A stretch of 34,824 bases of DNA from contig JAFUXB010000001.1 of assembly GCA_017477255.1 (NCBI GenBank), forward strand, positions 93,872-128,695, read 5' to 3'. Position 1 is the first letter of the stretch; each line of letters opens with the position of its first letter. Shown piece by piece: positions 1,709 to 27,420 of the stretch. Source of the stretch: Bacilli bacterium (GTDB lineage Bacteria; Bacillota_I; Bacilli_A; RFN20; CAG-826). A program made the translations under genes and the position numbers. A model generated the notes under the pieces. The model saw only the letters and a list, made by a program, of their open reading frames with translations. It had not been told where the DNA came from and did not search any database.

Positions 1709-1710
1709 TT

Positions 1711-4924: not shown

Positions 4925-4926
4925 AA

Positions 4927-4949
4927 AGACTTGGCAACAAGCCTTTTTT
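4927..4949 (+). terminator. Rho-independent terminator after fba
   Basis: Short hairpin with stem CTTG/CAAG, a GCAA tetraloop and outer AG/CT pairs around one mismatch, followed by TTTTT. It ends only seven bases before the ATG of the next gene, so that gene's start lies right behind the T-run. Confidence 0.7.
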
Positions 4950-4956
4950 AATAATT

Positions 4957-6673: not shown

Positions 6674-7963
6674 TTAATACCCTTTTTTACCAAGTAAATG
6701 GAACATATTTTTCTTATAAATTTCAACACCTGGTTGATTGAATGGGTTGATTTCATTTAAGTAAGCTGACATAGCACAAGCTTTCATGAAGAAGTAGAAT
6801 AAATGACCTAATGCTCTTGGTGACATTTCATCTAATGTAAGGCAAATATTATCGACTCCACCGGATTTTGAGTGAGCTTCTAAAGTTCCTTCATAAGCTT
6901 TTTTATTAATAAATGATAATTTCTTACCTGCTAAATAATTTAATCCATCAAGATCTTCTTTATCACTAATTACAGTAACATCGAAGTTTGGCTTTTCAAT
7001 ATAAAGGATAGTTTCAAATAAAATCTTTTCACCATCTTGAATATATTGTCCTAAGCTATGTAAATCAGTAGTGAAGACACAACTTGTTGGTAGGATTCCT
7101 TTTCCTTCTTTTCCTTCTGATTCGCCATATAATTGTTTCCACCATTCATTTAACATTCTAAATCTTGGTTCATAGCTTCCTAACATTTCAACTTTATATC
7201 CAAATTTTTGATATAAATAATGTCTTTCTAATGCATATTGATAAGCCATATTCTTATTAATATCTGGATTATCATATTCAAGCATTGCATCGTAGCATCC
7301 TGCTAAAAGTTCTTTTACATCAATTCCAGCACAAGCAATTGGGAATAAACCAACAGCAGTAATTACACTATATCTTCCACCAATATCATCTGGAAGAATA
7401 TAAGTTTCATAACCTTCTTTATTAGCAAGTGTTTTTAATGCTCCACGAGCTTTATCAGTAACACAAACAATAGCGTCTTTAGCTTTTTCTTTACCATATT
7501 TTTCTTCGACCATTTCTTTTAAAATTCTAAATGAGACTGAAGTTTCAGTAGTAGTACCACTTTTTGAAATACAACATACTGCAAAGTTTTTATCCTTTAA
7601 ATAAGATAGAGTTTCATGAACATAATTAGGATCTAAAGTATTTCCTAAATAAACAATTTTCATTTTTGAAGTTGGAAGTAAGCCATTAATTGCATCAATT
7701 GCAGCAACAGCACCTAAATATGAACCACCAATTCCACAAACTACTAAAGTGTCATAAGTTTCAATATAGTGATTTGCTTTTTTAATAATTCTTTCAAGCT
7801 CTTCCTTATCATAATTCTTTGGCCAATCGTACCAACCTAAAAAATCATTTCCAGCACCAGTTTTGTTTTTAATCATTGAGTCAACTTCAGCGACTCTTTC
7901 GCGATATTCATTAAAATTTACTAAATGGTTTTTGTTTACGTAATCAAAATTAACTTTTAACAT
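6674..7963 (-). CDS. pgi: Glucose-6-phosphate isomerase
   Basis: Interconverts glucose 6-phosphate and fructose 6-phosphate in glycolysis. 429 residues, slightly shorter than the usual 440-450 of Bacilli. Family motifs include VCGIGGSYLGA, SKSGTTTETS for phosphate binding, LNEWWKQLYGESEGKEGKG with the catalytic Glu, and the C-terminal NPFNQPGVEIYK. The ATG lies inside the end of the upstream S1-domain gene (14-base overlap) and is served by AAGGAG at 7976-7971, so the two genes form one operon. No clear terminator is seen between it and the tRNA promoter. Confidence 0.97.
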   Translation of the reverse strand: MLKVNFDYVNKNHLVNFNEYRERVAEVDSMIKNKTGAGNDFLGWYDWPKNYDKEELERIIKKANHYIETYDTLVVCGIGGSYLGAVAAIDAINGLLPTSKMKIVYLGNTLDPNYVHETLSYLKDKNFAVCCISKSGTTTETSVSFRILKEMVEEKYGKEKAKDAIVCVTDKARGALKTLANKEGYETYILPDDIGGRYSVITAVGLFPIACAGIDVKELLAGCYDAMLEYDNPDINKNMAYQYALERHYLYQKFGYKVEMLGSYEPRFRMLNEWWKQLYGESEGKEGKGILPTSCVFTTDLHSLGQYIQDGEKILFETILYIEKPNFDVTVISDKEDLDGLNYLAGKKLSFINKKAYEGTLEAHSKSGGVDNICLTLDEMSPRALGHLFYFFMKACAMSAYLNEINPFNQPGVEIYKKNMFHLLGKKGY

Positions 7964-8342
7964 TTTCTGACTCCTTTTTAAGTTCTTTCTCTATCATTTT
8001 TGGTAAAGCTTTTTCTAATTTTGAAAAATCTACATCTTTTAAATAAGATGTTATTCTTTTTGAAGGTAAAATTTCTTTATATGGATTTAATTCATTTGGA
8101 AGTCTTTTAATTGAAACACTTAAAAATTTGTTGTCTGGATTGATTTCATTAATTAAAACAGTGATTTTATCACCAACTTTAAAATAAGCATCAATGTTGT
8201 TTACAAAATTATAAGAGATTTCAGATATATGAAGTAAACCAACATAACCATAGTCAAAAGATAAAAAAGCACCATACTTTTTAATCTTTGTGACAATACC
8301 TTCGACTACATCGTTTACTTTATAATTAGAATTTACTTCCAT
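7950..8342 (-). CDS. S1 RNA-binding domain protein (YugI/CvfD type)
   Basis: 130 residues: an N-terminal S1 (OB-fold) domain at about 8-78, seen in VVEGIVTKIKKYGAFLSF, GLLHISEIS, FKVGDKITVLINEINPDNK and LSVSIK, then a basic helical tail. This is the layout of the small S1-domain proteins YugI (B. subtilis) and CvfD (streptococci), which bind RNA or ribosomes and affect gene expression after transcription. Its stop lies 14 bases inside pgi. The nearest ribosome-site match, AAAGG, is rather far from the ATG. Confidence 0.88.
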   Translation of the reverse strand: MEVNSNYKVNDVVEGIVTKIKKYGAFLSFDYGYVGLLHISEISYNFVNNIDAYFKVGDKITVLINEINPDNKFLSVSIKRLPNELNPYKEILPSKRITSYLKDVDFSKLEKALPKMIEKELKKESENVKS

Positions 8343-8425: not shown

Positions 8426-9265
8426 TTATTGTTCGAGTTCTTTTCTAATATCGTTAATTCTTTTTTCAAGTGAAGTTTTAACTGAAATATTATCAATAAT
8501 TAACTTAACAACTTTATCAAGCTCACTATTTTCACCATAGTCAGCTTTACAAATGAAATTAACTCTATTATTTACAAATAATGGAATAACTTTTTCTTTT
8601 TCATTATTTTTATAAACTGCAATAGAAGTACCACCGTTTTCTTTAATAACGATCATACTTGGAACATCTGTAAGTCCATCGCCTAAATAAATCATATTTT
8701 GAAGTTGAACTCTTTTAGTAGATTGCTTTTCGTTGATTTTAACATCATCGTTTCCTTGTAATAATCCTTTTGCAATTCTAAAGATGTATTGAGTTTTTTG
8801 AGTGTAATTTACCATTTGTTTTGGCCAAATTGCTTCGCCTTCTTCGTTATAAACATATTCACAACCAAAGATTGCTTTGAATTCTTCAGCAATTGAACAA
8901 GCTTCGACTATTTCTTTATTTCCACTAGTAATTAAATAATGTTCAACAATAATTCCTTTCGTTTGAGCATATTCTTTAATTCTTTTAAACCAATTTTCAA
9001 CGCCACGATAATATTTAATTCCTTTTCCTTGTTTATTTAAAAAGTCTCTGGTTAATTTAATATTATTTTCTTTAGCGATTTTAATCATCATGTACATATA
9101 GCCTAAAATCTTATCAATTCCAGCTTTTTCACAGAATTTAGTAGTAGTTGACCAGAATTCTTCAGGTGAAAGACCCATAGCAGGAATAAATTTAAAATTT
9201 TGCATATCTGTAACTGCTAAAGTTTTATCAAAATCATATAAAATTGCGACAATTGGTTTATCCAT
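8426..9265 (-). CDS. HAD-superfamily phosphatase, phosphoserine phosphatase-like
   Basis: 279 residues. Motif I is YDFDKT with nucleophile D11 and acid/base D13, motif II the TSGN segment, and motif IV GDGLTDVPSM with metal-binding aspartates, as in subfamily IB HAD phosphatases. The helical cap lies between motif I and about residue 100. Substrate is unknown; the phosphoserine phosphatase resemblance is to the fold only. A strong AGGAGG at 9279-9274 fixes the start. It diverges from pepF across a near-perfect 33-bp palindrome. Confidence 0.88.
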   Translation of the reverse strand: MDKPIVAILYDFDKTLAVTDMQNFKFIPAMGLSPEEFWSTTTKFCEKAGIDKILGYMYMMIKIAKENNIKLTRDFLNKQGKGIKYYRGVENWFKRIKEYAQTKGIIVEHYLITSGNKEIVEACSIAEEFKAIFGCEYVYNEEGEAIWPKQMVNYTQKTQYIFRIAKGLLQGNDDVKINEKQSTKRVQLQNMIYLGDGLTDVPSMIVIKENGGTSIAVYKNNEKEKVIPLFVNNRVNFICKADYGENSELDKVVKLIIDNISVKTSLEKRINDIRKELEQ

Positions 9266-9290
9266 AGTTTTTACCTCCTAATTATTTTAC

Positions 9291-9323
9291 CACAAATAGA
9301 ATATTTATAATATTTTATTTGTG
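9291..9323. promoter_or_regulatory. 33-bp near-perfect palindrome between divergent genes
   Basis: Two 15-base arms beginning CACAAATAG and ending TATTTGTG pair fully except for one G-T wobble, around a three-base centre TAT. It lies upstream of the HAD gene and in the shared upstream region of pepF, so an operator is more likely than a terminator. No known regulator motif was recognised. Confidence 0.5.
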
Positions 9324-9413
9324 ATGAAAAAGTGCTTAAAATTCAAAATAAATTAAAAATCTTCAAGATAAAATTTGAAAATACATTATTTATGCTTAAA
9401 ATTTATTTTCATG

Positions 9414-9419
9414 TATAAT
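9414..9419 (+). promoter_or_regulatory. pepF -10 box
   Basis: TATAAT, 18 bases before the ribosome site AAGGAG (9438-9443). No convincing -35 box at the usual spacing. Confidence 0.5.
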
Positions 9420-9448
9420 AAATTTGAATGAATTAAAAAGGAGAATTT

Positions 9449-11143
9449 ATGAATTTTAATGATATTCCATTAAGAATACCTAATTTAAAGAAAATTGAAG
9501 AAAAAGCAAAATTATTATCTGAAGAATTTTTAGCTGCTAAAACTGCTGATGAGGCTTTAAAAGTAGTTAAAAAATACTTTAAATATTATGATGAAATTTC
9601 AACTCAATTTATTGTAATTTCAATTAGATATTCAATTAATACTGAAGATAAAAAGATTAAAAAAGCTAGCGATTATTGCGATGAAATTTCACCAGTTATT
9701 GGTAATATTTCAAACAATTTCCAAAGATTATTGCTTAAATCAAAATTTAGACCAGAACTTGAAGCTAAACTTGGTAAACATTTATTTGATTTATATGAAG
9801 TTGGCGACAAGATCATGGATGAAAAGATTATCCCTGAATTAATCGAAGAAAATAAATTAGTTACTAAGTATGAAACTTTACTTGCTAGTGCAAAAATTCC
9901 GTTTGGTGATGAAGTTTTAAGCTTAACTCAACTTGGTAAATACATGGTTTCTAAAGATAGAGAAACTAGAATTAAAGGTGCTAAAGCTTATTGGGGATTT
10001 TTAGAAGAACATGATGCAGAAATCGGTGAAATTTATGATAAACTCGTTAAATTAAGAACTGAAATCGCTCATAAATTAGGCTTTAAATCATTTACTGAAC
10101 TTGGCTATTTAAGAATGAGTAGATTAGATTATAATGCAGAAATGGTTAAAGGATACCGTGAACAAATTCATGAAGTTGTTGTTCCTGAAGCAGAAAAATT
10201 AATCAAGAGACAACTTAAACGTACACACATGAAAGAAGCATTATTTGTTGATTTAAACTTAACTTTCTTAAGTGGTAATCCAACTCCAAAAGGTGATACA
10301 GCTCACTTAGTAAAATGTGCTCAAAAAATGTATCACGAAATGGATGAAACTGCTGGTAAATTCTTCGATTTCATGGTTGAAAGTAATTTATTAGATTTAG
10401 ATGCAAAACATGGAAAAATGGGTGGTGGATATATGACTTATCTTCCAAAATATAAAGCACCATTTATCTTTGCAAATAGTAATGGAACAGCCCAAGATGT
10501 CGATACTTTAACTCATGAAGTAGGACATGCCTTCCAAGGATATTTAGCAAGTTCAATTAAAGTACCAGAATATAGAACACCAACTATGGAAGGTGCTGAA
10601 ATTGATAGTATGTCTATGGAATTCTTTGCTTATCCATGGATGGAAAGTTTCTTTAAAGAAGATACAGAAAAATATATTTATGAACATTTAAGTGGAGCAA
10701 TCTTATTCTTACCATATGGTGTAGAAGTTGATGAATTCCAACACTTTGTTTATGAACATCCAGAAGCAACACATGAAGAAAGATGTGCTTATTGGAGAGA
10801 ACTCGATAAAAAATATAGACCATGGATCAAATATGGTGATTTCGAATATCTTGAAAAAGGAAGATATTGGGTTAGACAATCACATATCTTTGGTAGCCCA
10901 TTCTATTATATTGATTACACTTTAGCTCAAGTTTTAGCCCTTCAATTTAAATGCGAAATGGATAAAAATAGAGAAAAAGCATTCAAAAAATACATTAAAC
11001 TTCTCAAAATGGGTGGTAAATATCCATTCATCGAACTTATTACAAGAGCTCACCTTAATAATCCATTTGTTGATGGTAACGTTAAAAAAGTTATCAAACC
11101 TCAAATTAAAGTATTAAAGAGCATTGATGATTCAAAATTATAA
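9449..11143 (+). CDS. pepF: M3-family oligoendopeptidase (PepF type)
   Basis: Cytoplasmic zinc metallopeptidase degrading short oligopeptides. 564 residues. The catalytic motif is HEVGH (H356, E357, H360) within THEVGHAFQGY, and the third zinc ligand is likely E384 in MEGAEIDSM. A long helical N-terminal domain and the C-terminal YIDYTLAQVLALQF segment match M3B oligoendopeptidases. AAGGAG at 9438-9443 sets the start. It is a single-gene unit ending at a strong terminator shared with the convergent tRNA-Leu gene. Confidence 0.93.
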   Translation: MNFNDIPLRIPNLKKIEEKAKLLSEEFLAAKTADEALKVVKKYFKYYDEISTQFIVISIRYSINTEDKKIKKASDYCDEISPVIGNISNNFQRLLLKSKFRPELEAKLGKHLFDLYEVGDKIMDEKIIPELIEENKLVTKYETLLASAKIPFGDEVLSLTQLGKYMVSKDRETRIKGAKAYWGFLEEHDAEIGEIYDKLVKLRTEIAHKLGFKSFTELGYLRMSRLDYNAEMVKGYREQIHEVVVPEAEKLIKRQLKRTHMKEALFVDLNLTFLSGNPTPKGDTAHLVKCAQKMYHEMDETAGKFFDFMVESNLLDLDAKHGKMGGGYMTYLPKYKAPFIFANSNGTAQDVDTLTHEVGHAFQGYLASSIKVPEYRTPTMEGAEIDSMSMEFFAYPWMESFFKEDTEKYIYEHLSGAILFLPYGVEVDEFQHFVYEHPEATHEERCAYWRELDKKYRPWIKYGDFEYLEKGRYWVRQSHIFGSPFYYIDYTLAQVLALQFKCEMDKNREKAFKKYIKLLKMGGKYPFIELITRAHLNNPFVDGNVKKVIKPQIKVLKSIDDSKL

Positions 11144-14435: not shown

Positions 14436-14458
14436 ATTAAAATATAAGGAGTTTGAAT

Positions 14459-16246
14459 ATGAAAAAAATTACTAAAGACATTTATTATGTAGGTGTGAAT
14501 GATCACAAAATCGATTTATTTGAAGGTCAATATGATGTTCCAAATGGAATGGCATATAATTCATATATTATCTATGATGAAAAAGTTGCAGTCATGGATA
14601 CTGTTGATAAAAACTTCAAAGATGAATGGTTAAAAAATATTAAAGAAGTTTTGCTTGATAAAAAACCTGATTATTTAGTAATTCAACATATGGAACCAGA
14701 TCATAGTGCAAACATTATTAATTTTTTAAATGTTTATCCAGATACTGTGGTTGTTGGTAATCAAAAAACTTTTAAAATGATGGAACAATTTTTCCATCAA
14801 GAAATTAAAAATAAATTAGTAGTTAATGAAGGTGATTCAATTTCTTTAGGAAAACATATTTTAAACTTCGTGTTTGCTCCAATGGTTCACTGGCCAGAAG
14901 TTATGTTTACTTATGAATCAAGTGAAAAAGTTTTATTCTCAGCTGATGCATTTGGTAAATTTGGTGCTTTAGATGTTGAAGAAGAATGGGCTTGTGAAGC
15001 AAGGAGATACTATTTTGGTATTGTTGGAAAATATGGTGCACAAGTTCAAAATGTTTTAAAGAAAGCTGCAAATCTTGAAATTAAAATTATTTGTCCATTA
15101 CATGGACCAATTTTAAGTGAAAACTTAAGTTATTATTTAAATTTATATGATATTTGGTCATCATATAGAGCTGAAACTAGTGGAATTGCTATTTTTTATA
15201 CAAGCGTTTATGGAAATACTAAAAAAGCAGTTGAACTTTTAGCAGATAGATTAACAAAAAAAGGTGCTCCAAAAGTTACAGTTTGTGATTTAGCTAGAGA
15301 AGATATGGCTGAAGCAGTTGAAGATGCATTTAGATATGACAAAATTGTTTTAGCTACAACTACATATAATGCTGGTATTTTCCCATTTATGAATGAATTT
15401 ATCGAACATCTTGTTGAAAGAAATTTCCAAAATAAGAAAATTGCTATTATTGAAAATGGTACATGGGCACCAATGGCAGCAAAAGTTATTAAAAACAAAT
15501 TAGCAAATTCTAAAAATCTTGAATTTGTTGAACCAACAATTACTTTACTTTCATCTATGACTGATGAAAATGTTGCTCAAATTGAAAAAGTTAGCGATTT
15601 ATTAACTGCAGAATATGTAGCATTAAATGAAGAAAAAGTAGATAAACACGATAAAAGAGCCTTATTTAATATTGGATATGGCTTATATGTTGTAACTTCA
15701 AATGATGGAAAGAAAGATAATGGATTAATTGTTAACACAGTAACTCAATTAACTGACAATCCATTAATGGTTGCAGTTAACATTAATAAAAATAATTATT
15801 CTCATGATGTAATTAAAGAAACTAAAAAATTAAATGTAAACTGCTTAAGTGTAGAAGCACCATTTAAGATTTTTGAAAAATTTGGATTTGTTTCAGGAAG
15901 AAATAAAGATAAATTTGAAAATGAAGAAGTTTTAAGAACTGATAATGGATTAGTTTTATTAGATAAATATGCTAATGCTGTTATTTCTTTAGAAGTTGAA
16001 AATTATATTGATCTTGGAACACATGGAATGTTTATTTGTAAAGTTACTGAATCTAGAGTTCTTTCAGATAAAGAAACAATGACATATACTTATTATCAAA
16101 AGAATGTAAAACCAAAACCAGAACAAAAGAAAAAAGGCTGGGTTTGTAAGGTTTGTGGATTTGTTTATGAAGGAGAAGAACTTCCAGAAGATTACATTTG
16201 CCCACTTTGCAAACATGGTGCGAGTGACTTTGAAAAAATAGAGTAG
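14459..16246 (+). CDS. Flavodiiron protein fused to flavin reductase and rubredoxin domains
   Basis: 595 residues in four domains. The N-terminal metallo-beta-lactamase diiron domain (1 to about 240) has H77, E79, D81, H82 in HMEPDH, then H144, D163 and H215. A flavodoxin domain (about 243-385) has the FMN loop TSVYGNTKKA. A flavin-reductase-like FMN domain (about 400-545) has TVTQLTDNPLMVAV. A C-terminal rubredoxin (561-595) has C563, C566, C581, C584. This joins FprA and high-molecular-weight rubredoxin in one chain, so electrons from NAD(P)H could reach the diiron site to reduce O2 or NO to harmless products. AAGGAG at 14446-14451 selects the ATG at 14459 over an in-frame TTG at 14453. Confidence 0.94.
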   Translation: MKKITKDIYYVGVNDHKIDLFEGQYDVPNGMAYNSYIIYDEKVAVMDTVDKNFKDEWLKNIKEVLLDKKPDYLVIQHMEPDHSANIINFLNVYPDTVVVGNQKTFKMMEQFFHQEIKNKLVVNEGDSISLGKHILNFVFAPMVHWPEVMFTYESSEKVLFSADAFGKFGALDVEEEWACEARRYYFGIVGKYGAQVQNVLKKAANLEIKIICPLHGPILSENLSYYLNLYDIWSSYRAETSGIAIFYTSVYGNTKKAVELLADRLTKKGAPKVTVCDLAREDMAEAVEDAFRYDKIVLATTTYNAGIFPFMNEFIEHLVERNFQNKKIAIIENGTWAPMAAKVIKNKLANSKNLEFVEPTITLLSSMTDENVAQIEKVSDLLTAEYVALNEEKVDKHDKRALFNIGYGLYVVTSNDGKKDNGLIVNTVTQLTDNPLMVAVNINKNNYSHDVIKETKKLNVNCLSVEAPFKIFEKFGFVSGRNKDKFENEEVLRTDNGLVLLDKYANAVISLEVENYIDLGTHGMFICKVTESRVLSDKETMTYTYYQKNVKPKPEQKKKGWVCKVCGFVYEGEELPEDYICPLCKHGASDFEKIE

Positions 16247-17310: not shown

Positions 17311-17386
17311 GGGTCTTTAGCTCAGCTGGGAGAGCGCCTCCATGGCATGGAGGAGGTCACCGGTTCGATCCCGGCAAGATCCACCA
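17311..17386 (+). tRNA. tRNA-Ala (anticodon GGC)
   Basis: 76-nt cloverleaf with acceptor GGGTCTT/AAGATCC including the G3-U70 wobble that marks tRNA-Ala, anticodon stem CCTCC/GGAGG, anticodon GGC, and encoded CCA. Its terminator lies directly behind. Confidence 0.96.
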
Positions 17387-17398
17387 CGAATGTAGGTT

Positions 17399-17428
17399 AA
17401 GGCTGATACTAGTTATCAGCCTTTTTTT
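17399..17428 (+). terminator. Terminator after tRNA-Ala
   Basis: Stem AAGGCTGATA/TATCAGCCTT with a five-base loop and a run of Ts. Confidence 0.92.
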
Positions 17429-17560: not shown

Positions 17561-17651
17561 TTATTAGAAAGAATGCATGAGCTTATTGAAATATTCTTTA
17601 CCGCACAATAGCTTTATTAGAGATGAATTCAAATTGAAATAAGACAAATTA

Positions 17652-17669
17652 TGGTATAATCGATATCGA
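17652..17669 (+). promoter_or_regulatory. Helicase promoter with palindrome at the start site
   Basis: TGGTATAAT (extended -10, TATAAT at 17655-17660) is followed by the perfect palindrome TCGATATCGA (17660-17669). The ATG is at 17672, so the transcript would have a leader of about five bases and no ribosome site. Confidence 0.6.
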
Positions 17670-17671
17670 AT

Positions 17672-20338
17672 ATGAAAACATTCGACAAAGTTTCGTTTAA
17701 TGGTACATTTAGAAATTATCAACAAAGAGTGTTAGATAACTCTGATAAATATCTTTTGAATGGAAAAATCAACATTGTTGCCGCTCCTGGAAGTGGAAAA
17801 ACAATTTTAGGTTTGGAACTCATCAAAAGGTTAAATGCTCCAACAATCATTTTATCCCCAACAACTACAATTAAATATCAGTGGGGCGATAGATTTAAAG
17901 ATAGTTTCTTGGATAAAGATGAAAACGTTGATGATTATTTCTCATATGACTTACATGAGATAACACTTATTAATTCAATCACATATCAAGCTCTTCATTC
18001 AATTATGAACAAACTTCCTTTGGAAGAAGATGATGCAGTAATAGATTATTCAGACTTGGATATTTTTGAATTGATTAGAAAATACAAAGTTAAAACAATC
18101 TGCTTAGATGAGGCACATCATTTGCAAAACGAATGGCAAAAATCTCTTGAGAAGTTTATTGAACAATTAGGAGATGATGTCAAAATCATTGCCTTAACCG
18201 CAACTCCTCCTTATGACGCTGGAAGAGCAGAATGGCAAAGATACGAAAAAGTGTGTGGCCCAATTGATGAAGAAATATTTGTTCCAGAATTAGTGAAAGA
18301 AGGAACTCTTTGCCCACATCAAGACTTTGTTTATTTCAACTATCCAACAAAAGAAGAAACTGTTGCGTTTTCTGAATATAAAAACAAAGTTCTTTTATGC
18401 ATTCAAGAATTGAGGGAACTAGATATTTATCATGGTGTCTATGAATTTATCTTAAATAAATATAAAACTGAGAAAGAGGTTCTTTTTGAAAACACCAAAT
18501 CATATATTGCTTTATTAATCCTTTTGCATTCGCTTTCAATCGAAATTGATGTCAAGATTATTGAATCGTTAACCACTGAAAAGCTTCTTCCAGTTCCTAA
18601 CCCCGTTTTCTACGAAAGAGCGTATCAATTTTTGCTTGATGAAGAAGCAATATTAAGCGAAGAAAAGAAAGAGCTTATCTTAAAGATTTTAAGAAAATAT
18701 TCAACAATCGAAAGAGGGAAAGTTAATTTCTCCTTAAAAGATAACACTAAACACAAGTTAATCAGTTCAGTTGGAAAACTTAACAGCATTGCAAAAATCA
18801 CCGAGGAAGAGAGCAAAAATCTTGGTAGTGATTTAAGAATGCTTATCTTGGCCGACTACATCAAAAAAGAAACTGTTAAAGATTTGTTTTCTGGGAATAC
18901 ACCTTTATATATCAGTGTTGTGACCATATTTGAAGTTTTAGCAAAATCAAATCCTAATTATAAGATGGGTGTTCTTTCTGGTAATCTCATTATTCTTCCA
19001 ACAGAATGTAAAGAATACCTAAAAGGATACAAATTTAAGGCTTCTAAAATAGGCGAAACCATTTATTCAGAAATTAGCTTTTCTTCAATGAAGAACAAAG
19101 ACAAGGTGGATGTTGTTTCTACACTATTTGAAAAGGGCGTAATCAACATTATTATTGGTACCAAAGCTCTTCTCGGAGAAGGCTGGGATTCACCTTGTAT
19201 CAACACTTTAATCCTAGCAAGTTTTGTTGGTAGTTTTATGCTCTCCAATCAAATGAGAGGTAGAGCTATTCGAATTGATAAAAATAACCCAAGTAAAGTC
19301 GCTAATATATGGCACTTAGTAACTCTAGAACCTGAATACATATTTGAAGAAAAGTTACTTAAATCTTTGGCCATTAAGAAAGATACTGATTTCAATCAAA
19401 TCGATTCATCTGATTATGACACTCTTCAAAAAAGATTTGATTGTTTTGTTGGTCCAAATTATGACACAGGGGAAATTGAAAGTGGAATTGATAGGATAAC
19501 CGCTATCCATCCTCCATTTAATAAAAGTGGTATTGAAACTATCAACACTGCAATGTTAGCAAGAGCGAAGATGAGAGACGACACAAAGAATAAATGGGAG
19601 AGTTCTATTAAATATAACTTCAAATTAGCTGAAGAAATTGAAGTGCCTGAAGAAAAAGTTATAAAGCCATTTAAATATATCAATATGGTTGGTATTTTGA
19701 TTTCACTTGGTGGATCAGCCGCCTCTGGCTATTTTTTCTCACGCCTTTTAATTACTCTATCAACTGCGAAACCTGAAAATGATGTATATTTATTGCTTGG
19801 AATTATTGTAGCTGCCATTTCATTTGTTGTTTTCACTTTCCTATTTGGAAAAGTTATCAATAAAATAATCGTTCACTCTTCACCAAAGAAAAACATGACA
19901 CATCTTGCAAAGGCACTACTTAAAACATTACAAGATGTTGAAAAGATAAGTCATAGAGCATCAATAAGAGTGAGAGGGGATGAAATCTGTTTTGGAGTCC
20001 AAATAATTGATGCTAGCATCTATGAACAAAGTATTTTCAATCAGGCCATCACTGAAATGCTGTCTCCAATTGATAATCCTAAGTACTTATTAATTATGAA
20101 AAAAAGAGGATTCCGTAACTACGAGCAATCATATTCTTGCCCGTCAATCATTAGCCAAAGAAAAGAAATGGTGGAACTTTTCTCTGATAATCTAAAAGGA
20201 AGAGTTGGACCATTCGATATAGTTTATACAAGGACAGATGAAGGAAGAGAAGCGCTCATAAAATGTCATAAAAAGTCCTTCTTAACACAAAATGAAAAGC
20301 TATTAAAAAGAAAGAAGATTATTTCTCAATTCGAATAA
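17672..20338 (+). CDS. Membrane-anchored superfamily 2 helicase, function unknown
   Basis: 888 residues. Helicase core: a Q-motif-like NYQQRV, Walker A APGSGKT (38-44), motif II DEAH (146-149), motif III TAT (176-178), then after a helical insert of about 250 residues GEGWDSP (502-508) and motif VI QMRGRAIR (527-534). Two hydrophobic stretches follow, about 672-695 and 705-729, enough for a transmembrane hairpin, and then a soluble C-terminal domain of about 155 residues. A nucleic-acid helicase tied to the membrane is unusual. No nuclease motif was seen. Codon use looks less AT-biased than in neighbours (by eye), and the gene stands alone behind a tRNA, which suggests acquisition. A defence role is a guess. 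Confidence 0.85.
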   Translation: MKTFDKVSFNGTFRNYQQRVLDNSDKYLLNGKINIVAAPGSGKTILGLELIKRLNAPTIILSPTTTIKYQWGDRFKDSFLDKDENVDDYFSYDLHEITLINSITYQALHSIMNKLPLEEDDAVIDYSDLDIFELIRKYKVKTICLDEAHHLQNEWQKSLEKFIEQLGDDVKIIALTATPPYDAGRAEWQRYEKVCGPIDEEIFVPELVKEGTLCPHQDFVYFNYPTKEETVAFSEYKNKVLLCIQELRELDIYHGVYEFILNKYKTEKEVLFENTKSYIALLILLHSLSIEIDVKIIESLTTEKLLPVPNPVFYERAYQFLLDEEAILSEEKKELILKILRKYSTIERGKVNFSLKDNTKHKLISSVGKLNSIAKITEEESKNLGSDLRMLILADYIKKETVKDLFSGNTPLYISVVTIFEVLAKSNPNYKMGVLSGNLIILPTECKEYLKGYKFKASKIGETIYSEISFSSMKNKDKVDVVSTLFEKGVINIIIGTKALLGEGWDSPCINTLILASFVGSFMLSNQMRGRAIRIDKNNPSKVANIWHLVTLEPEYIFEEKLLKSLAIKKDTDFNQIDSSDYDTLQKRFDCFVGPNYDTGEIESGIDRITAIHPPFNKSGIETINTAMLARAKMRDDTKNKWESSIKYNFKLAEEIEVPEEKVIKPFKYINMVGILISLGGSAASGYFFSRLLITLSTAKPENDVYLLLGIIVAAISFVVFTFLFGKVINKIIVHSSPKKNMTHLAKALLKTLQDVEKISHRASIRVRGDEICFGVQIIDASIYEQSIFNQAITEMLSPIDNPKYLLIMKKRGFRNYEQSYSCPSIISQRKEMVELFSDNLKGRVGPFDIVYTRTDEGREALIKCHKKSFLTQNEKLLKRKKIISQFE

Positions 20339-20367: not shown

Positions 20368-20389
20368 GACCTCGAAAAGAGGTCTTTTT
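20368..20389 (+). terminator. Terminator after the helicase gene
   Basis: Stem GACCTC/GAGGTC, loop GAAAA, then TTTTT. Confidence 0.9.
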
Positions 20390-20451
20390 CTTTTATTTAT
20401 TTGATTATATTAAAACTTAAAAAGAATTTTTTTCTTATTTTATATATAAAA

Positions 20452-20537: not shown

Positions 20538-21986
20538 ATGTCAACCGATAATACCAATGTCAAAACATCCGGTATTGGATTTAAAGACAAGATTGGCTAT
20601 GCTTTAGGCGACGTAGGATCATTACTCGTTTTTGGTTTGGTCAATACTTTTTTACAAATCTTTTATACGGATAAGTTAGGAATTGCCCCACTTATTGTTA
20701 TGATTATTATGATCGTAGCTAGAGTTTGGGATGCAATTAATGACCCAATTTGGGGAAGAATTGTCGATAATGCTAAAGCAAAACCTGGAAGAAGGTATAA
20801 GAAGTGGTTACTTGTTTTAAGTATGCCATTAGCTTTCTCTTCCATTTTAATGTTTATTGATGTTAAAGGATGGTTTAACTTTAGTAACGCTGCATGTATT
20901 GCTTATGCAGTTATTTCTTATATTGTTTTCGGTATGTTATATACTGGAACAAATATTCCTTATGGCTCAATGTCATCAGTTATTACTTCAGATGATAAAG
21001 AAAGAAATGCTTTATCAGTATTTAGAAGTGTTGGTTCAACTTTAGGTGGTTTTGGACCAATGATCGTTAACTTTATGGTTTGGGATAAAGTTGATGGAGT
21101 CAACGTTTTAAATTCAACTAAATTAATTATTGGTGTTGCTATTTTAGCTGTTTTATCTGTAGTTTGCGCTATTCTTTGCTATAAAATGAGTGAAGAAAGA
21201 ATTGTTTTTGAAAGAACAGAAGAGAAAAAACCAAAAGGTGAAACAAAAAGAGTTGTTCTTAATTTATTAAAAACTCGTTCGTTTGTTATCATTTCAGTTG
21301 TTGGTATGTTATTCTTAGCAGCTCAAATGTTCCAAACTACATATAATATGTATGTTTTCAAAGTATTCTTTAATAAAGCAAGTATGGCAACTTTATCAAC
21401 AGTTTGCCAATATTTACCTGTAGCAATTGTTATGTTCTTCTCTGGAAAACTTGTTAAAAAGTTTGGAAGAAAAGAAATTTGTGCTTATGGATTATTATTT
21501 ACTGCAATTAGTTTTGGAATATTAGCAGTTATTCCAATTAATGCCTTTGATAAAGGAATTTTAATGTGGATCTTCTTGGCTTTTTCTCTATTAGCAGGCT
21601 TAGGAAATTCATTTATTTTCTTAATGATTTGGGCTTTAGCAAACGATTCAATCGATGATTATTATGTTAGAACTAAATCACATGATGAAGCTACAGCTTA
21701 TTCAATTTTTACATTCATGAGAAAACTTGGACAAACTGTTGCAGCAGTTATTGTTAACGTTTCTTTAATTATTATTGGCTATGGACAAAGTGAAGACTGG
21801 GTTCCAACTGCCGCAGATGCAACTTCAATGTATTATCAATCAATAATTATTCCAGCTGCATTATCACTTTTAATGTTCTTAATTTTAATGTTCTTATATC
21901 CACTTTCAAAAAGAAGAGTTGAAGAACTTCAAGTTCAAAAAGAAGCTTTACTTAGTGGAAAGGAACAAGTAGAAGAGACTAAATAA
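20538..21986 (+). CDS. sftA: GPH-family sugar:cation symporter, predicted sulfoquinovoside importer
   Basis: 482-residue polytopic membrane protein of the glycoside-pentoside-hexuronide family (MelB relatives). The signature GYALGDVGSLLVF and ARVWDAINDPIWGRIVDNAK are near the start; about 12 hydrophobic segments follow, with a short charged C-terminal tail. In E. coli the sulfoquinovose locus uses the related YihO. Here it is first in a seven-gene operon with a sulfoquinovosidase-like gene two bases downstream, so it probably imports sulfoquinovose or its glycosides. Ribosome site AGGAGG at 20524-20529. The symbol follows sulfoglycolytic transaldolase naming from memory; family is secure, substrate inferred. 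Confidence 0.85.
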   Translation: MSTDNTNVKTSGIGFKDKIGYALGDVGSLLVFGLVNTFLQIFYTDKLGIAPLIVMIIMIVARVWDAINDPIWGRIVDNAKAKPGRRYKKWLLVLSMPLAFSSILMFIDVKGWFNFSNAACIAYAVISYIVFGMLYTGTNIPYGSMSSVITSDDKERNALSVFRSVGSTLGGFGPMIVNFMVWDKVDGVNVLNSTKLIIGVAILAVLSVVCAILCYKMSEERIVFERTEEKKPKGETKRVVLNLLKTRSFVIISVVGMLFLAAQMFQTTYNMYVFKVFFNKASMATLSTVCQYLPVAIVMFFSGKLVKKFGRKEICAYGLLFTAISFGILAVIPINAFDKGILMWIFLAFSLLAGLGNSFIFLMIWALANDSIDDYYVRTKSHDEATAYSIFTFMRKLGQTVAAVIVNVSLIIIGYGQSEDWVPTAADATSMYYQSIIIPAALSLLMFLILMFLYPLSKRRVEELQVQKEALLSGKEQVEETK

Positions 21987-21988
21987 TT

Positions 21989-23974
21989 ATGAATAAACAA
22001 GAATTAAGAGAATATTTCCTATCACAGCTTACAAATGGAAATATAGTTTTTAGAGTTGCTAAGGGTGAAGCTCGTTATAAGATGTCTCGTGGTTCATTTA
22101 AAACAAGTGAACATATTAGAAACGATCACACTTTAACTTATAAAACTCAATATGATAATCGTTATATTTTTAGTGATGGAAAAGTAGAAGGTGAATTAAT
22201 TTTAGATGATAATCCTGATGTTTTAAAATTCCATTTCCATGTAGATCATGGATATAATCGTTTCTATTTATGTTTTAAAACATTTGAAGATGAACATATT
22301 TATGGTTGTGGAGAACAATTTACAACAGTTGATTTAAAAGGAAAACAAGTACCTATTTGGGTAAGTGAACATCAACAAGTAATGAAAATTGCTATGAAAC
22401 TTTTAAGGTGGAAACTTTTAGGAAAACCTGAACCAGATAGAGTTACAAAATATAAAAATCATCAAACTTATTGTTCATTCCCAATTTTTATTTCAAGTAA
22501 AAATTATGGATTTTATATTCATGAAGATAGTTATGGTCAACTTAATTTTAAAAAGGATAGTGTTGAATTAAAATTTAGAGCTATTCCTCAATCAGTTAGT
22601 TTAATTACTGCTGATTCTCAATTAGAATTAGTTGAAAAAATGGCTAATTTACTTGGAATTTCTCCACGTTTACCTGAATGGGTTAATAATGGAGCAATTT
22701 TAGCAATGCAAGGTGGAACTGAAGTTTTAAGAGAAAAATATCAAGAAGCCAAAGCAAAAGGAGTCAAGATTGCAGCATTATGGGCACAAGATTGGTGCGG
22801 ACATGTTGTTACAAGTTTTGGTTATCAAGTTTATTGGAATTGGAAAGTTGATGATGAACTTTATAAAGGATTAAAAGAATTTATCGATGAATTACACAAA
22901 GATGGCGTTAAATTCTTAGGTTATATCAATACTTTCTTAAAAAAAGATGCTCCACTTTATAACGAAGCTAAGGCAATGAATATTTTAGTTAGAAAGAAAG
23001 ATGGAAGCGTATATCATGTAAAATCTACAACATTTGATGCAGGTATTGTTGATTTAACTAATCCTACTGGATATAACTGGTATAAAGAAGTTATGAAAAA
23101 GAACATGATCGAATTTGGTCTTGATGGTTGGATGGCTGATTTTGGTGAATATTTACCTACTGATTCAGTAGTTTATGGTGGAAGAGCGGAATATTTACAT
23201 AATAAATGGCCAACTTTCTGGGCAAAATGTTGTCATGATGCAATTGTTGAATTAAATAAAGAAAAAGATATATTTATTTTCTCAAGAGCTGCTTTTGGAC
23301 ATACAGTTCAATATACAAATACAATTTGGAATGGTGATAACCACGTTGACTGGTCAGATGAATATGGAATTGCTTCCGTAATTCCTGCAACTATTTCACT
23401 TGCAAGTTGTGGAGTTGGAGTAGTTCATAGTGATATTGGTGGCTATACAACAGTTATGTTTATGAAACGTTCACCAGAATTACTTAGAAGATGGTCAGAA
23501 ATGAATATATTTACACCTATTTTTAGAACTCACGAAGGAAATAGACCAAAAGATAATGCACAATTTGATAATCCAGAAGTAATTGATGAATTCGCAAGAA
23601 ATTCAAATATATATTATGATTTAAAAGATTATAGATTATCCTTAATTGACGAATATGAGGAAAAAGGAACTCCAGTAGTTCGTCCATTATTCTTACATTA
23701 TGATGAAGAATGGTGCAAAGTTGAAAAACGTGAATTCTTACTTGGTAAAGACGTATTAGTTTCGCCAGTATTAAGAGAAAAAGAAATTAAGCATATTGTT
23801 AGGATTCCTAAAGGAAAATGGGTACAATTTTTCACTGGTAAAGAATTCGAAGGTGGAGATGCAATTGTTGATTCACCATTAGGTCTTCCAATTGCTTTTT
23901 ATAAAAAAGAATCGAGTTTTGCAGGGTTATTTGAAAAAATAAGCGAAAAATATAAGAAAGGAGAAAACGAATAA
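21989..23974 (+). CDS. sftG: GH31 alpha-glycosidase, sulfoquinovosidase type (YihQ-like)
   Basis: 661 residues, matching E. coli YihQ over the whole length as far as recalled. The catalytic nucleophile is D384 in WMADFGEYLPTD (YihQ D405) and the acid/base D450 in NGDNHVDW (YihQ D472). Residues of the sulfoquinovose pocket line up at a constant offset: Q241 (Q262), Q267 (Q288), W283 (W304) and Y486 (Y508). The position of the sulfonate-contacting R301 is Q280 here, in GYQVYWNW. It would hydrolyse sulfoquinovosyl glycerol or similar glycosides in the cytoplasm to free sulfoquinovose. The Gln makes substrate assignment less certain, but the operon context supports it. A 15-base match to the dispersed repeat lies at 23914 inside the conserved coding end. 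Confidence 0.88.
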   Translation: MNKQELREYFLSQLTNGNIVFRVAKGEARYKMSRGSFKTSEHIRNDHTLTYKTQYDNRYIFSDGKVEGELILDDNPDVLKFHFHVDHGYNRFYLCFKTFEDEHIYGCGEQFTTVDLKGKQVPIWVSEHQQVMKIAMKLLRWKLLGKPEPDRVTKYKNHQTYCSFPIFISSKNYGFYIHEDSYGQLNFKKDSVELKFRAIPQSVSLITADSQLELVEKMANLLGISPRLPEWVNNGAILAMQGGTEVLREKYQEAKAKGVKIAALWAQDWCGHVVTSFGYQVYWNWKVDDELYKGLKEFIDELHKDGVKFLGYINTFLKKDAPLYNEAKAMNILVRKKDGSVYHVKSTTFDAGIVDLTNPTGYNWYKEVMKKNMIEFGLDGWMADFGEYLPTDSVVYGGRAEYLHNKWPTFWAKCCHDAIVELNKEKDIFIFSRAAFGHTVQYTNTIWNGDNHVDWSDEYGIASVIPATISLASCGVGVVHSDIGGYTTVMFMKRSPELLRRWSEMNIFTPIFRTHEGNRPKDNAQFDNPEVIDEFARNSNIYYDLKDYRLSLIDEYEEKGTPVVRPLFLHYDEEWCKVEKREFLLGKDVLVSPVLREKEIKHIVRIPKGKWVQFFTGKEFEGGDAIVDSPLGLPIAFYKKESSFAGLFEKISEKYKKGENE

Positions 23975-24654
23975 TGAAATTCTTTTTAGACTCAGCTAAG
24001 ATTGATGAAATCGATAAAGCTTATAAATGTTATGGAATTGATGGAATTACAACAAATCCAAAACACATTCAAAATAGTGGTAAACCATTTTTAGAAGCAA
24101 TCACTGACATTGCTAAATGGGTTAAAGAAAATAAACTTGAAGGAGTTGAAAAATTCCCAGTTTCAGTTGAAATTAATCCACATTTAGATAATGCAGAAGA
24201 TATGATTAAAGAAGCACGCAAAATTTCTAAATTATGTGAAAACTTCGTAATTAAAATCCCATGCACTTTAGAAGGATTAAAAGCTGCTAAAACTTTAGAA
24301 GAAGAAGGAATTAGAACTAATGTCACATTAGTATTTTCAGGATCACAAGCAATTCAAGCTGGAAGAATTAACGCTAAATTTGTTTCACCATTTATTGGTT
24401 GGAAAGAAAATAATGGTGAAGATACTTATCAATATATGGCTCAAATTGCTGAAATTTATAAAGTTAAAGGTTATAAAACTGAAATTATTGCAGCAGCTGT
24501 AAGAAGTGGTAAAACAATTGCTGAAATGGCTGAACTTGATATTGATATTGTTACTTGTGGACTTGCAGTTTTAGAAGATGCATTTACTCACCCATATACA
24601 ACTTATGGCTTAGGCGTATTTTGTAATGCTTGGGATAATACAAAAGGTAATTAA
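23974..24654 (+). CDS. sftT: Small transaldolase, predicted 6-deoxy-6-sulfofructose transaldolase
   Basis: 226-residue TalB/FSA-like beta-barrel. The N-terminus MKFFLDSAKIDEI and GIDGITTNP are typical of the small transaldolase group; the Schiff-base lysine is K94 in FVIKIPCT. In the sulfoglycolytic transaldolase pathway the enzyme splits sulfofructose, passes the dihydroxyacetone unit to glyceraldehyde 3-phosphate to give fructose 6-phosphate, and releases 3-sulfolactaldehyde. The ATG overlaps the sftG stop (TAATG) and has an AAAGGAG site. By sequence alone it could be a fructose-6-phosphate aldolase; the neighbours decide. Confidence 0.9.
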   Translation: MKFFLDSAKIDEIDKAYKCYGIDGITTNPKHIQNSGKPFLEAITDIAKWVKENKLEGVEKFPVSVEINPHLDNAEDMIKEARKISKLCENFVIKIPCTLEGLKAAKTLEEEGIRTNVTLVFSGSQAIQAGRINAKFVSPFIGWKENNGEDTYQYMAQIAEIYKVKGYKTEIIAAAVRSGKTIAEMAELDIDIVTCGLAVLEDAFTHPYTTYGLGVFCNAWDNTKGN

Positions 24655-24657
24655 AAA

Positions 24658-25491
24658 ATGAAAATTTCATTTATAGGACTTGGTATCATGGGTTTACCCA
24701 TGGCTACTAACGTAAGTAAAAGTCACGATCTAATCGGATATGATATATTTAAAAAGGAAACACCATTTCCTTTTGCTTCTTCTTATGAAGAATGTGCAAA
24801 CCATGCTGAAATTATTATTTCAATGGTTCCAAAAAATGAACATTTTGAAAGTTTAGTTAATTCAATGCTCCCTTATTTAAAAAAAGGAACAATTTGGATT
24901 GATATGTCTACAATTTCTCCTTCAACAAATTTAAAAATGAAAGAGATTTTACTTAAAAAAGATGTAATTTTATGTGATGCACCAGTAGTTAAAAGTCAAC
25001 CTGCAGCAATTAAAGGTGAACTTGGAATTTATTTTGGTGGTGAAGAAGAAGTTTTTGAAAAAGTTAAACCAATCTTATCATTAATGGGTAAAAACATTAT
25101 TTATATGGGTCCAAGTGGATCTGGTTTAAAAATGAAAATTTTACATAATGCATTAGTTGGTCAAATTCAAAATGGTGTTAATGAAATTTTAGGACTTGCT
25201 GAATCATTAAATATGAATTTAGACGATGTAGTCACTGCTTTAGGTTATGGTGGAGCTCAATGTTTCTATCTTGATACTAAAGCTAATAACATTAAAAATC
25301 ACACATATCCTACAGCTTTTTCTGTTGAAAATATGAATAAAGACGTTCATTTTGCATTAGAAATTGCTAAATCAATAAATAAAGAATTACCATCTTTAGA
25401 AAATGTTGTAAAAGTATATGAAAAAGCAATGGAAGAAGGTTTAGCAAAACAAGATTTCAGCGCTTCATATGAAATAGTTAATAAAAAATAA
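24658..25491 (+). CDS. sftF: Beta-hydroxyacid dehydrogenase family, predicted 3-sulfolactaldehyde reductase
   Basis: 277 residues. An N-terminal Rossmann fold with GLGIMGLPMA binds NAD(P)H; SMVPKNEHFES and WIDMSTISPST follow; the substrate loop is DAPVVKSQPAAIKGE; the catalytic lysine region is GLKMKILHNALVG. This is the family of YihU, which reduces 3-sulfolactaldehyde to 2,3-dihydroxypropane-1-sulfonate. K112 lies where YihU (from memory) has a sulfonate-binding Arg in PVGRT, keeping a positive charge. Reduction would regenerate NAD+ in fermentation. The gene starts three bases after sftT. Confidence 0.87.
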   Translation: MKISFIGLGIMGLPMATNVSKSHDLIGYDIFKKETPFPFASSYEECANHAEIIISMVPKNEHFESLVNSMLPYLKKGTIWIDMSTISPSTNLKMKEILLKKDVILCDAPVVKSQPAAIKGELGIYFGGEEEVFEKVKPILSLMGKNIIYMGPSGSGLKMKILHNALVGQIQNGVNEILGLAESLNMNLDDVVTALGYGGAQCFYLDTKANNIKNHTYPTAFSVENMNKDVHFALEIAKSINKELPSLENVVKVYEKAMEEGLAKQDFSASYEIVNKK

Positions 25492-25502
25492 GGAGACTAT
25501 GT

Positions 25503-26834
25503 ATGAAAAAAGCAAAAATAGGTTTAGTGTGCCTTGTTAGAAAAACATTTGATTTTGAAACAGCATTTAAACTTTATAATGAAAGAATTAAAGAAGTTAT
25601 GAAAGATGAAACTGTTGAATGGTTTAATTATCCTTCAATGGTTATTGATCCTCTTGATGCTAAAAATGCTAGTGATTTCTTTTTAACAAATAAGGTCGAT
25701 GCAATCGTAGTAGTCTCTGCTACATTCCATTTAGGACATTTAGCTTTAATTATTAACGATCAATGTAGAAAACCATTACTTTTATGGGGATTTGATGAGC
25801 TTCCATATGATGGAGGAAAAATTAGATTAAATGCTGTTTGCGGCGTTAATTTGAATGCTTCAAATTTATATAAAGGTGGAAATGATTCTTATATTGTCCA
25901 TGTTGGAAATGAAATTGATGAAGACTGGGTTAAAGCAATTAAGATGAAAGTTGCTATTGAAAATTCAAATGTAGGTTTAGTTGGATATAGAGCTGATGGT
26001 TTCTTTAATGTTGGTGTTGATGAATTACATCTTTATAAAGAAATTGGCTGCTTAATTACTCATTTTGAATTAGATGAATTATTTACTGGAGAAGCAACTG
26101 AAGAAGAAATTAATAAGGAGAAAGCTAATGTTTTAGAAATTTTTGATACTAAAAAGTTAAATGATTTCCAAATTACCCAAGTTGCTAAACTTGTTGTTTT
26201 AGCATCAAAATTTGTTAAAAATAAACAACTTGATGTACTTGCAATTAGATGTTGGCCAGAATTTGCTAAAAATTATGGAGTTTCACCTTGTGCAATGATG
26301 TCAATTTTACAATCAAGGGGAATTTTACTTGCTTGTGAAGGTGATATTGAAGCTGCAATTTCTATGGTAGCTGTTAGAGCTGCTGGTGAAAATACACCAT
26401 TTATGGCTGATTTATCACAAGTTAATTATAAAGAAAACTTTGCTTTACTTTGGCATGATGGAGTTGCTCCATGTAATTTATGGAACGGCTTATGCAATAG
26501 AAGTTTAGAAACTTATTTTGCTGGAGGAAAAGGAGTTACTGCTGACTTTGTTTTAAAGGCAGGAAAAATGTCAATTTTAAGAATTGATACTGCTAGAGGA
26601 AAAACAAGAATCTTCTATGAAGAAGGTGAAGCAGTTGATATGGATAAAGAATTATCTGGAACTTATGCAAAAGTTATCTTTAAACATCATATTAAAGACG
26701 TAATTGATGAAGTAGTTTATACAGGTGTTGCTCACCACGTAATTATGGGCTATATCCAATATGAAAAAGCAATGAGATATCTTGCTAGAATTAAAGGTTG
26801 GGAAGTTTTAGATGTTGACAGCAAGAAGTTCTGA
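25503..26834 (+). CDS. sftI: L-fucose/arabinose isomerase-fold protein, predicted sulfoquinovose isomerase
   Basis: 443 residues of the FucI/AraA-like fold. The N-terminal half has alternating strands and helices (IGLVCLVRKTFDFE; VSATFHLGHLALI). The C-terminal catalytic half has LAIRCWPEF, ACEGDIEAAISM and LWHDGVAPCNLW, giving candidate metal-binding Glu, Asp and His. In the Sft pathway it isomerises sulfoquinovose to 6-deoxy-6-sulfofructose before the transaldolase step. AAGGAG at 25490-25495 sets the start. The last 23 bases overlap the next gene. Confidence 0.87.
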   Translation: MKKAKIGLVCLVRKTFDFETAFKLYNERIKEVMKDETVEWFNYPSMVIDPLDAKNASDFFLTNKVDAIVVVSATFHLGHLALIINDQCRKPLLLWGFDELPYDGGKIRLNAVCGVNLNASNLYKGGNDSYIVHVGNEIDEDWVKAIKMKVAIENSNVGLVGYRADGFFNVGVDELHLYKEIGCLITHFELDELFTGEATEEEINKEKANVLEIFDTKKLNDFQITQVAKLVVLASKFVKNKQLDVLAIRCWPEFAKNYGVSPCAMMSILQSRGILLACEGDIEAAISMVAVRAAGENTPFMADLSQVNYKENFALLWHDGVAPCNLWNGLCNRSLETYFAGGKGVTADFVLKAGKMSILRIDTARGKTRIFYEEGEAVDMDKELSGTYAKVIFKHHIKDVIDEVVYTGVAHHVIMGYIQYEKAMRYLARIKGWEVLDVDSKKF

Positions 26835-27420
26835 ATTTAAAAAATATGGCGAATTAATTGAAGAAAATTTTGACGATGTAGTCCAATATCTCCTTTTTAA
26901 CTCACCAATGCCAGAACAAAATAATTTATATGTCAGAGATGATTTAAAGATGCATAATCTTAAATCGTTTTTAGAAATTAAAAATAAAGTTTATAAGAAT
27001 AAAGAAACAGAAATTGGATATTGCAATGGATATAATTCTAAATTAAATTGCTTAGAATATCATAATGGAATTGAAGTTGATATTGCTGCAACTGATTTAG
27101 TTTTACTTCTTGCTTTACAAGAAGATGTTCATGATGGAGTAATAGATAGTAAAGACGTTAAAGCTTTTTATATTAAAAAAGGTGAAGCAGTAATTTTATA
27201 TAGTGGAGTTTTCCATTTTTCACCTTGTAAATTATCAGATTCAGGCTTTAAATGTGCAATTATTTTACCTGATGGAACAAATAAAGATTTAGAAAAACCA
27301 AGCGAAGATAAAAAGTATTGGAAAGAAAATAAGTGGCTTTATGCACATAAAGACACAAATCAAGCTAAGCTTGGCGCTTATATTGGTATTATTGGAGAAA
27401 ATATAGAAGTTAAATATTAG
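26812..27420 (+). CDS. sftX: DUF4867 protein, sulfoglycolysis accessory protein
   Basis: 202 residues; the central AFYIKKGEAVILYSGVFHFSPC followed by IILPDGTN looks like a cupin-like barrel with His candidates. It matches the DUF4867 family, whose gene accompanies Sft pathway operons in Firmicutes, but whose reaction I do not know to be established. A sugar-binding, mutarotase or isomerase-assisting role is speculation. The ATG lies 23 bases inside sftI in another frame, so translation is coupled; no strong ribosome site is seen. Confidence 0.8.
   Translation: MLTARSSEFKKYGELIEENFDDVVQYLLFNSPMPEQNNLYVRDDLKMHNLKSFLEIKNKVYKNKETEIGYCNGYNSKLNCLEYHNGIEVDIAATDLVLLLALQEDVHDGVIDSKDVKAFYIKKGEAVILYSGVFHFSPCKLSDSGFKCAIILPDGTNKDLEKPSEDKKYWKENKWLYAHKDTNQAKLGAYIGIIGENIEVKY

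Follow-up and report, generated by a model that had tools for sequence, protein, structure and literature searches.

A single ORF (nt 17672–20338, plus strand), lying in the 34,824-nt stretch of a Bacilli bacterium contig (JAFUXB010000001.1) that was analysed here and is referred to as the window, codes for an 888 aa protein, assigned by Pfam and by its relatives to the superfamily 2 (SF2) helicases and predicted to be anchored in the membrane. The questions raised by this locus are whether the motor is indeed tied to the membrane and, if so, on which nucleic acid and for which function it would act there.

Domain layout of the helicase and its nearest folds

A preliminary description of the window had reported a full set of helicase motifs in one ORF. 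The ORF limits are exact and the motifs are all present, namely APGSGKT (aa 38–44), DEAHH (aa 146–150), TATPP (aa 176–180), GEGWDSP (aa 502–508) and QMRGRAIR (aa 527–534), each of them invariant or nearly so in the alignment of 39 family members. Pfam matches to ResIII (1.8e-17), DEAD (1.9e-9) and Helicase_C (9.7e-6) were all above gathering scores, with no nuclease domain among them, and no Pfam domain was matched beyond residue 560. The AF2 model, based on 39 sequences (mean pLDDT 81), gives the domain order RecA1, helical insert, RecA2, helical linker, two long helices and alpha/beta domain. RecA-like domain 1 (aa 1–203; nt 17672–18280, plus strand), delimited by the ResIII match, the invariant columns and the model, carries motifs I, Ia, Ic, II (DEAHH) and III (TATPP). 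According to the model and to fold matches, a helical insert (aa 227–387; nt 18350–18832, plus strand) lies between the first strand of RecA2 and the remainder of this domain; its placement by secondary structure suggests that it occupies the position of Hel2i in Hef and RIG-I, and the region at aa 204–387 has a mean pairwise identity of 37%. RecA-like domain 2 (aa 388–560; nt 18833–19351, plus strand), recognised from Helicase_C and the invariant columns, contains motif V (GTKALLGEGWDSP) and motif VI (QMRGRAIR). Conserved columns span every SF2 motif in the 39 sequences, together with two family signatures, ELVK...LCPHQD after motif III and ASFVGSFMLSNQMRGRAIR around motif VI. The protein belongs to SF2 by its pair of RecA-like domains, its motifs I, II, III, V and VI and its XPB-like fold.

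The best structural neighbours of the motor obtained with VIA-align were XPB (Z 18.1), Hef (Z 16.3) and T4 UvsW (Z 16.1), and archaeal XPB was the only sequence relative in the PDB (E about 3e-5), while Foldseek ranked MDA5, RIG-I, XPB and Hef. The latter ranking would suit a membrane-tethered RNA helicase working on cellular or viral RNA, for example as a dispensable component of RNA decay at the membrane or as an RNA sensor, since its top places are partly taken by helicases carrying a helical insert in RecA2 (MDA5, RIG-I and Dicer-type); moreover, RNA decay in Bacillota is linked to the membrane through RNase Y. However, the better-normalised alignment puts the DNA translocases XPB, Hef and UvsW first, a core RNA-decay factor would fit poorly with the patchy and foreign distribution described below, and an RNA-processing partner gene was never recurrent alongside the helicase in 489 flanking ORFs. 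This reading as a membrane-tethered RNA helicase is considered unlikely.

When compared with named families, the protein shares the SF2 RecA1–RecA2 core with XPB/RAD25 (archaeal XPB, TFIIH XPB) and T4 UvsW (Z 16–18), from which it differs by the additional helical insert, membrane hairpin and basic C-terminal domain, and from XPB also by the lack of a Bax1 or TFIIH context. Identity with the DNA repair helicase XPB was discarded, the NCBIfam model NF045503, whose cut-off is 610 bits, reaching 33.8 bits over aa 12–110 only. Hef and RIG-I-like receptors have both the SF2 core and the helical insert in RecA2 in common with it; unlike RIG-I-like receptors, it has a membrane hairpin and no CARDs, and the four-cysteine zinc-binding domain by which it could be counted among them is absent, the C-terminal alignment holding a single near-invariant cysteine. 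Pfam ResIII, as well as a weak PADLOC REase_I match to the motor (6e-5), connects it with Res and HsdR of type III and type I restriction, but neither an endonuclease domain (Pfam) nor a recurrent methyltransferase gene accompanies it; a type III Res subunit was rejected, with ResIII and helicase domains only and no recurrent neighbour gene. No full-length match to known anti-phage proteins was retrieved from PADLOC-DB 2.0.0 (from 2023), where the partial matches to the motor were REase_I (6e-5) and PbeA (2e-3). No fitting family was found in NCBIfam or PADLOC, nor any published description in a literature search excluding preprints. The family is unnamed and undescribed by any library searched; the preliminary description had seen here a candidate for an undescribed system, and no named family in Pfam, NCBIfam or PADLOC fits the protein.

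The C-terminal basic alpha/beta domain (aa 735–888; nt 19874–20335, plus strand), previously outlined as an unrecognised domain of about 155 residues, comprises 154 residues and has no convincing fold match in the PDB, the best alignment reaching Z 4.5 over 55 residues and Foldseek giving no significant hit. Folded alone, it was modelled by AF2 with a pLDDT of 91.4, and it is positively charged throughout the family (mean net charge +12.2, range +5 to +19). Its few conserved charged columns appear unlike a nuclease site. Weak matches to tRNA_bind_3 (in 2 of 39 members), GCN2 and ArgRS were put down to chance or charge composition. In 392 Bacillota genomes the domain was found neither standing alone nor otherwise fused, occurring only in the helicase or in its remnants.

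A predicted membrane hairpin

The two hydrophobic segments first placed at about aa 672–729 turned out to be a two-helix hairpin present family-wide (about aa 668–734; nt 19673–19873, plus strand), outlined by hydropathy, charge, the AF2 model and dN/dS and predicted to be N-in/C-in. In the model its helices cover aa 669–698 and 701–734, with modest confidence (block means 56–77). On the Kyte-Doolittle scale the second segment of the window protein is strong (2.85) and the first weak (1.36), and in 39 of the 43 family members compared neither falls below 1.6. Across 43 members, residues 668–734 have a mean pairwise identity of 16% and a mean hydropathy of +1.46 (0.70 to 1.94), against 37–60% identity and mean hydropathies of -0.70 to +0.04 in all other regions. 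Lysine and arginine amount to 15.8 and 18.8 per 100 residues in the flanks of the helices versus 8.1 in the loop. Two adjacent predicted TM helices with positive-inside flanks are thus conserved across the family. The hairpin also has the highest dN/dS of all regions in most close pairs (0.12–0.9, compared with 0.00–0.23 in the two RecA domains). Such a drift of sequence, with position, hydropathy and positive-inside ends maintained, is what is expected of a membrane anchor, and the best reading of these features is that an N-in/C-in hairpin, predicted to be inserted, anchors the helicase in the membrane.

The same segments could in principle be a buried helical pair within an ordinary cytosolic repair helicase, and both the moderate hydrophobicity of the first one in the window protein (1.36) and the modest AF2 confidence would agree with it. 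However, 16% identity combined with conserved hydropathy and positive-inside flanks is the opposite of a buried core, and in a TM-less relative from Tritonibacter (L055), in which motor and C-terminal domain are kept, a short linker takes the place of the hairpin. The buried core of a soluble fold, considered in the preliminary description as the contrary case, is on these grounds highly improbable. The rapid evolution of the hairpin, the fastest of all regions in most pairs compared, would suit abortive infection, in which foreign nucleic acid is sensed by the motor and the membrane perturbed by the hairpin, killing or arresting the cell; two-helix hairpins are common as effectors of abortive systems. 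Against this, the hairpin sits mid-chain, between motor and C-terminal domain, and the Tritonibacter protein retains both of these without it, which leaves a killing function quite unlikely.

A small helical gene was observed to overlap the helicase start in the TM-less alphaproteobacterial relatives (L055, nt 7540–7977; L054, nt 8486–8851). Its products are 60% identical between Tritonibacter and Rhodovulum and resemble XpaC only weakly (Pfam E 0.054, below the cut-off); this XpaC-like small protein could replace the hairpin as membrane attachment.

Spread, promoter and surroundings of the gene

Scanning of GTDB contigs retrieved 44 loci, with 38–76% identity and nearly all of full length; altogether, some 50 relatives bear out the domain architecture. 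The hosts are mostly metagenome bins of Clostridia and Bacilli, many from gut and rumen, with the addition of Treponema/Spirochaetales, Acholeplasmataceae and one Candidatus Scatousia, and distant relatives are carried on plasmids of Paenibacillus, Tritonibacter and Rhodovulum. In the tree, the three spirochaete sequences form one group within those of Bacillota. Universal conservation of the homologues, which the preliminary description had set against its proposal of an accessory system, was not observed: copies were found in 12 of 391 good Bacillota genomes, in 8 of 146 sampled genomes of its taxonomic family (the window's own genome counted), in 5 of the 16 species of a related genus and in none of the 12 same-genus relatives listed. 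The different codon use noticed earlier is pronounced, with a deviation of z 14.5 versus at most 3.3 among the 29 other genes of the window; GC3 is 0.26, against 0.08–0.19 in 28 of these 29 genes and 0.25 in the remaining one. Intact copies are under purifying selection (whole-gene dN/dS 0.03–0.22), and decayed ones also occur. At one locus (L008; around nt 1500–1915, minus strand) an internal deletion has fused approximately the first 24 codons with the C-terminal domain, leaving an in-frame TGA, and the remnant adjoins what we take, by eye, to be genes for a NERD-domain-like protein and an AAA+ ATPase. Others show an internal stop (L073), a remnant (G422) or, in Rhodovulum, a split gene. Patchy spread, foreign codon usage and decaying copies rule out a housekeeping gene, and comparison of the sequences points to one that is horizontally acquired, accessory and spreading. 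The original observation on the helicase is confirmed as real, and was somewhat understated as regards foreign origin and family conservation.

Phage carriage is common for defence genes. Three peptide-seeded scans of 2.9 million IMG/VR viral contigs gave no relatives, so that such carriage was not seen. The two "phage" matches obtained in INPHARED (L056 and L057) are both UNVERIFIED faecal scaffolds, and L057 seems to be bacterial, as it bears an operon for an amino-acid ABC transporter.

In the window, the upstream neighbour is a tRNA-Ala(GGC) gene (nt 17311–17386, plus strand; ARAGORN), ending 286 bp before the helicase gene and followed by its own terminator (nt 17399–17423, terminator scan). 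The sequence and the same scan place an intrinsic terminator, GACCTC-GAAAA-GAGGTC-TTTTTCTTT, after the helicase gene (nt 20368–20392, plus strand; stem nt 20368–20384). A promoter is predicted from the sequence and from family comparison (nt 17634–17660, plus strand), with a -35-like TTGAAA (nt 17634–17639), a 15-nt spacer and an extended -10, TGgTATAAT (TATAAT at nt 17655–17660). The view of a lone gene behind a tRNA, with its own promoter and terminator, holds strictly for the transcription unit. Between the -10 and the ATG there are 11 nt, and no Shine-Dalgarno sequence is present. An exact TATAAT ending 5–14 nt before the start was found in 15 of 53 members, compared with 14 of 358 flanking ORFs, for which 3–15 nt were counted; allowing one mismatch, the counts were 18/53 and 42/358 (Fisher p 1e-4, an optimistic value, as related sequences are not fully independent). 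Most of the examples from Clostridia have 6 nt between the -10 and the start codon and a TTGACA-like -35 at 17 nt, so that transcription would begin at or beside the start codon. The helicase message is thus predicted to be leaderless or nearly so, and we speculate that this may serve expression during infection. A -10 box directly before the helicase start was also noted at loci L021, L022, L024, L025, L032, L034, L036 and L048.

Apart from closely related loci, no partner gene was recurrent in 489 flanking ORFs. At 38 loci the neighbours are for the most part metabolic, the copies adjoining genes that, recognised by eye, presumably correspond to purB, guaB, lon, degV, murI or recA-gmk, or tRNA genes. 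Of 43 loci, 5 have a tRNA gene at no more than 450 bp, compared with 20 of 469 control ORFs, a weak enrichment (p = 0.05). An integrative element at the tRNA was rejected, the window copy having no flanking direct repeats, no integrase being recurrent and the tRNA enrichment being weak. In one related genus the gene sits near tRNA-Thr/rimO, in a variable site that otherwise holds transporters, lipoproteins and chaperones, which do not look defence-like. Flanks are shared upstream between L011 and L013 and downstream among L012, L013 and L039, suggesting one variable site; gene-exact transposition, considered from the blastn boundaries, is not claimed. In the window's own genus the neighbouring genes are not conserved either, leaving no empty site to compare. 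Two small peptides with NHLP/lantibiotic-like leaders (LTDEQLNSISGG), possibly bacteriocin precursors, were observed next to tRNA-Thr at locus L129 (nt 7392–8053).

An accessory helicase for DNA uptake or processing at the membrane, with a ComFA-like role, or a helper of mobile elements, would be compatible with a gene that is mobile and sometimes near tRNA genes, and ComFA is a membrane-linked SF2 helicase serving DNA import in Gram-positive bacteria. On the other hand, com, conjugation and integrase genes are not recurrent in the flanks, competence machinery is ill-suited to the patchy distribution, and a TnpB gene is adjacent at one inspected locus only (L029); the probability of such a role is decidedly low. 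The TnpB gene in question (nt 9239–10684, minus strand) is of IS605 type (OrfB_IS605, 9.7e-16) and convergent with the helicase.

PADLOC, run on 303 neighbour proteins including some window genes, returned scattered matches, to be read as raw, uncontrolled counts. Many of them are to housekeeping-like families, and nine large neighbours were inspected singly; a clear match is a PDC-S37 protein (L046). By eye, we take a gene 2.8 kb from the helicase at another locus (L113) to be Cas9, and genes on both sides of it in the nearest relative (L118, genome G064; nt 1233–1914 and 4786–5444) to be PIN-type toxin-antitoxin-like pairs. With scattered matches only, in the PADLOC run, among the nine large neighbours and at the tRNA-Thr site, a defence island was rejected; the mostly metabolic neighbours provide no evidence of one. 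The inspection of homologue neighbourhoods for defence islands and tRNA-adjacent sites, proposed in the preliminary description, gave neither the former nor more than a weak enrichment of the latter.

Two further features of the window are worth recording. After the helicase gene lies a sulfoquinovose catabolism operon of the transaldolase (sulfo-TAL) route (nt 20538–27420), whose first gene, a GPH symporter, starts 200 bp downstream of the helicase gene. It also includes a YihQ-like GH31 sulfoquinovosidase (1e-204), a transaldolase-like SftT candidate, an SLA-reductase-like dehydrogenase and an SftI-like isomerase (4e-57); the symporter has a match, a weak one, in only 1 of 25 other same-genus genomes. 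At nt 14453–16246, a single protein fuses an ODP-family flavodiiron domain, flavodoxin, flavin reductase and a rubredoxin-like domain.

Proposed role and comparison with known systems

The preliminary description had envisaged a membrane-tied helicase acting at the envelope on incoming DNA. The membrane anchor in this proposal is sustained by the hairpin of the family; a defence context is not, the flanks being mostly metabolic. Single-gene defence systems can, however, lie outside islands, and the lack of an island signal therefore lowers the case for defence and does not remove it. We tentatively favour an accessory translocase, tethered to the membrane and working on nucleic acid that enters the cell, most likely a one-gene defence factor conceptually similar to SNIPE or Kiwa, a reading that we hold to be plausible rather than probable. 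Its more specific form, a one-gene immune system in which a leaderless mobile gene provides a membrane-tethered dsDNA translocase with no nuclease and a DNA-binding C-terminal domain of new fold, is doubtful. Membrane insertion, translocation, a dsDNA substrate and the role in defence are what we infer for the helicase.

As a mechanism, the two-helix hairpin would hold an XPB/UvsW/Hef-like translocase at the inner face of the cytoplasmic membrane, with the basic C-terminal domain adjoining the membrane. This domain and the helical insert would grip nucleic acid, most likely dsDNA arriving by injection or uptake, and translocation or unwinding powered by ATP might block, reel out or expose the incoming molecule before it is used. 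Since the helicase has no nuclease, the outcome would be destruction by host nucleases, or pure obstruction as proposed for Kiwa. Even if the role is not in defence, the protein stands for an unnamed family of lone, roaming, membrane-anchored SF2 motors, with an unrecognised C-terminal fold and a predicted leaderless promoter.

Among known systems, SNIPE is similar in that one protein, bound to the membrane, is proposed to act on DNA there, and its membrane-targeting region is weakly conserved and, in a third of the homologues, missing (PMC13190303). It differs in having a GIY-YIG nuclease, DUF4041 and an N-terminal TM region; the helicase described here carries no nuclease, both GIY-YIG and DUF4041 are absent from its Pfam matches and its hairpin is internal, and assignment to SNIPE was rejected. 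Zorya and Kiwa are cases of membrane-located DNA targeting, Zorya with the recruited effectors ZorC and ZorD, Kiwa by means of KwaB, which binds DNA at the membrane and restrains it with no cleavage (PMC12904381). Both are multi-gene systems, while neither ZorA/B/C nor KwaA/B recur beside the helicase; Zorya was also excluded by PADLOC, which gave no Zorya model match, and by the lack of a conserved partner in the 489 flanking ORFs. The likeness of the helicase to SNIPE, Zorya and Kiwa lies only in the proposed way of working. If this proposal is true, location and a motor, with no cutting, would suffice to tell foreign from self DNA in one protein, extending the principle of SNIPE and Kiwa.
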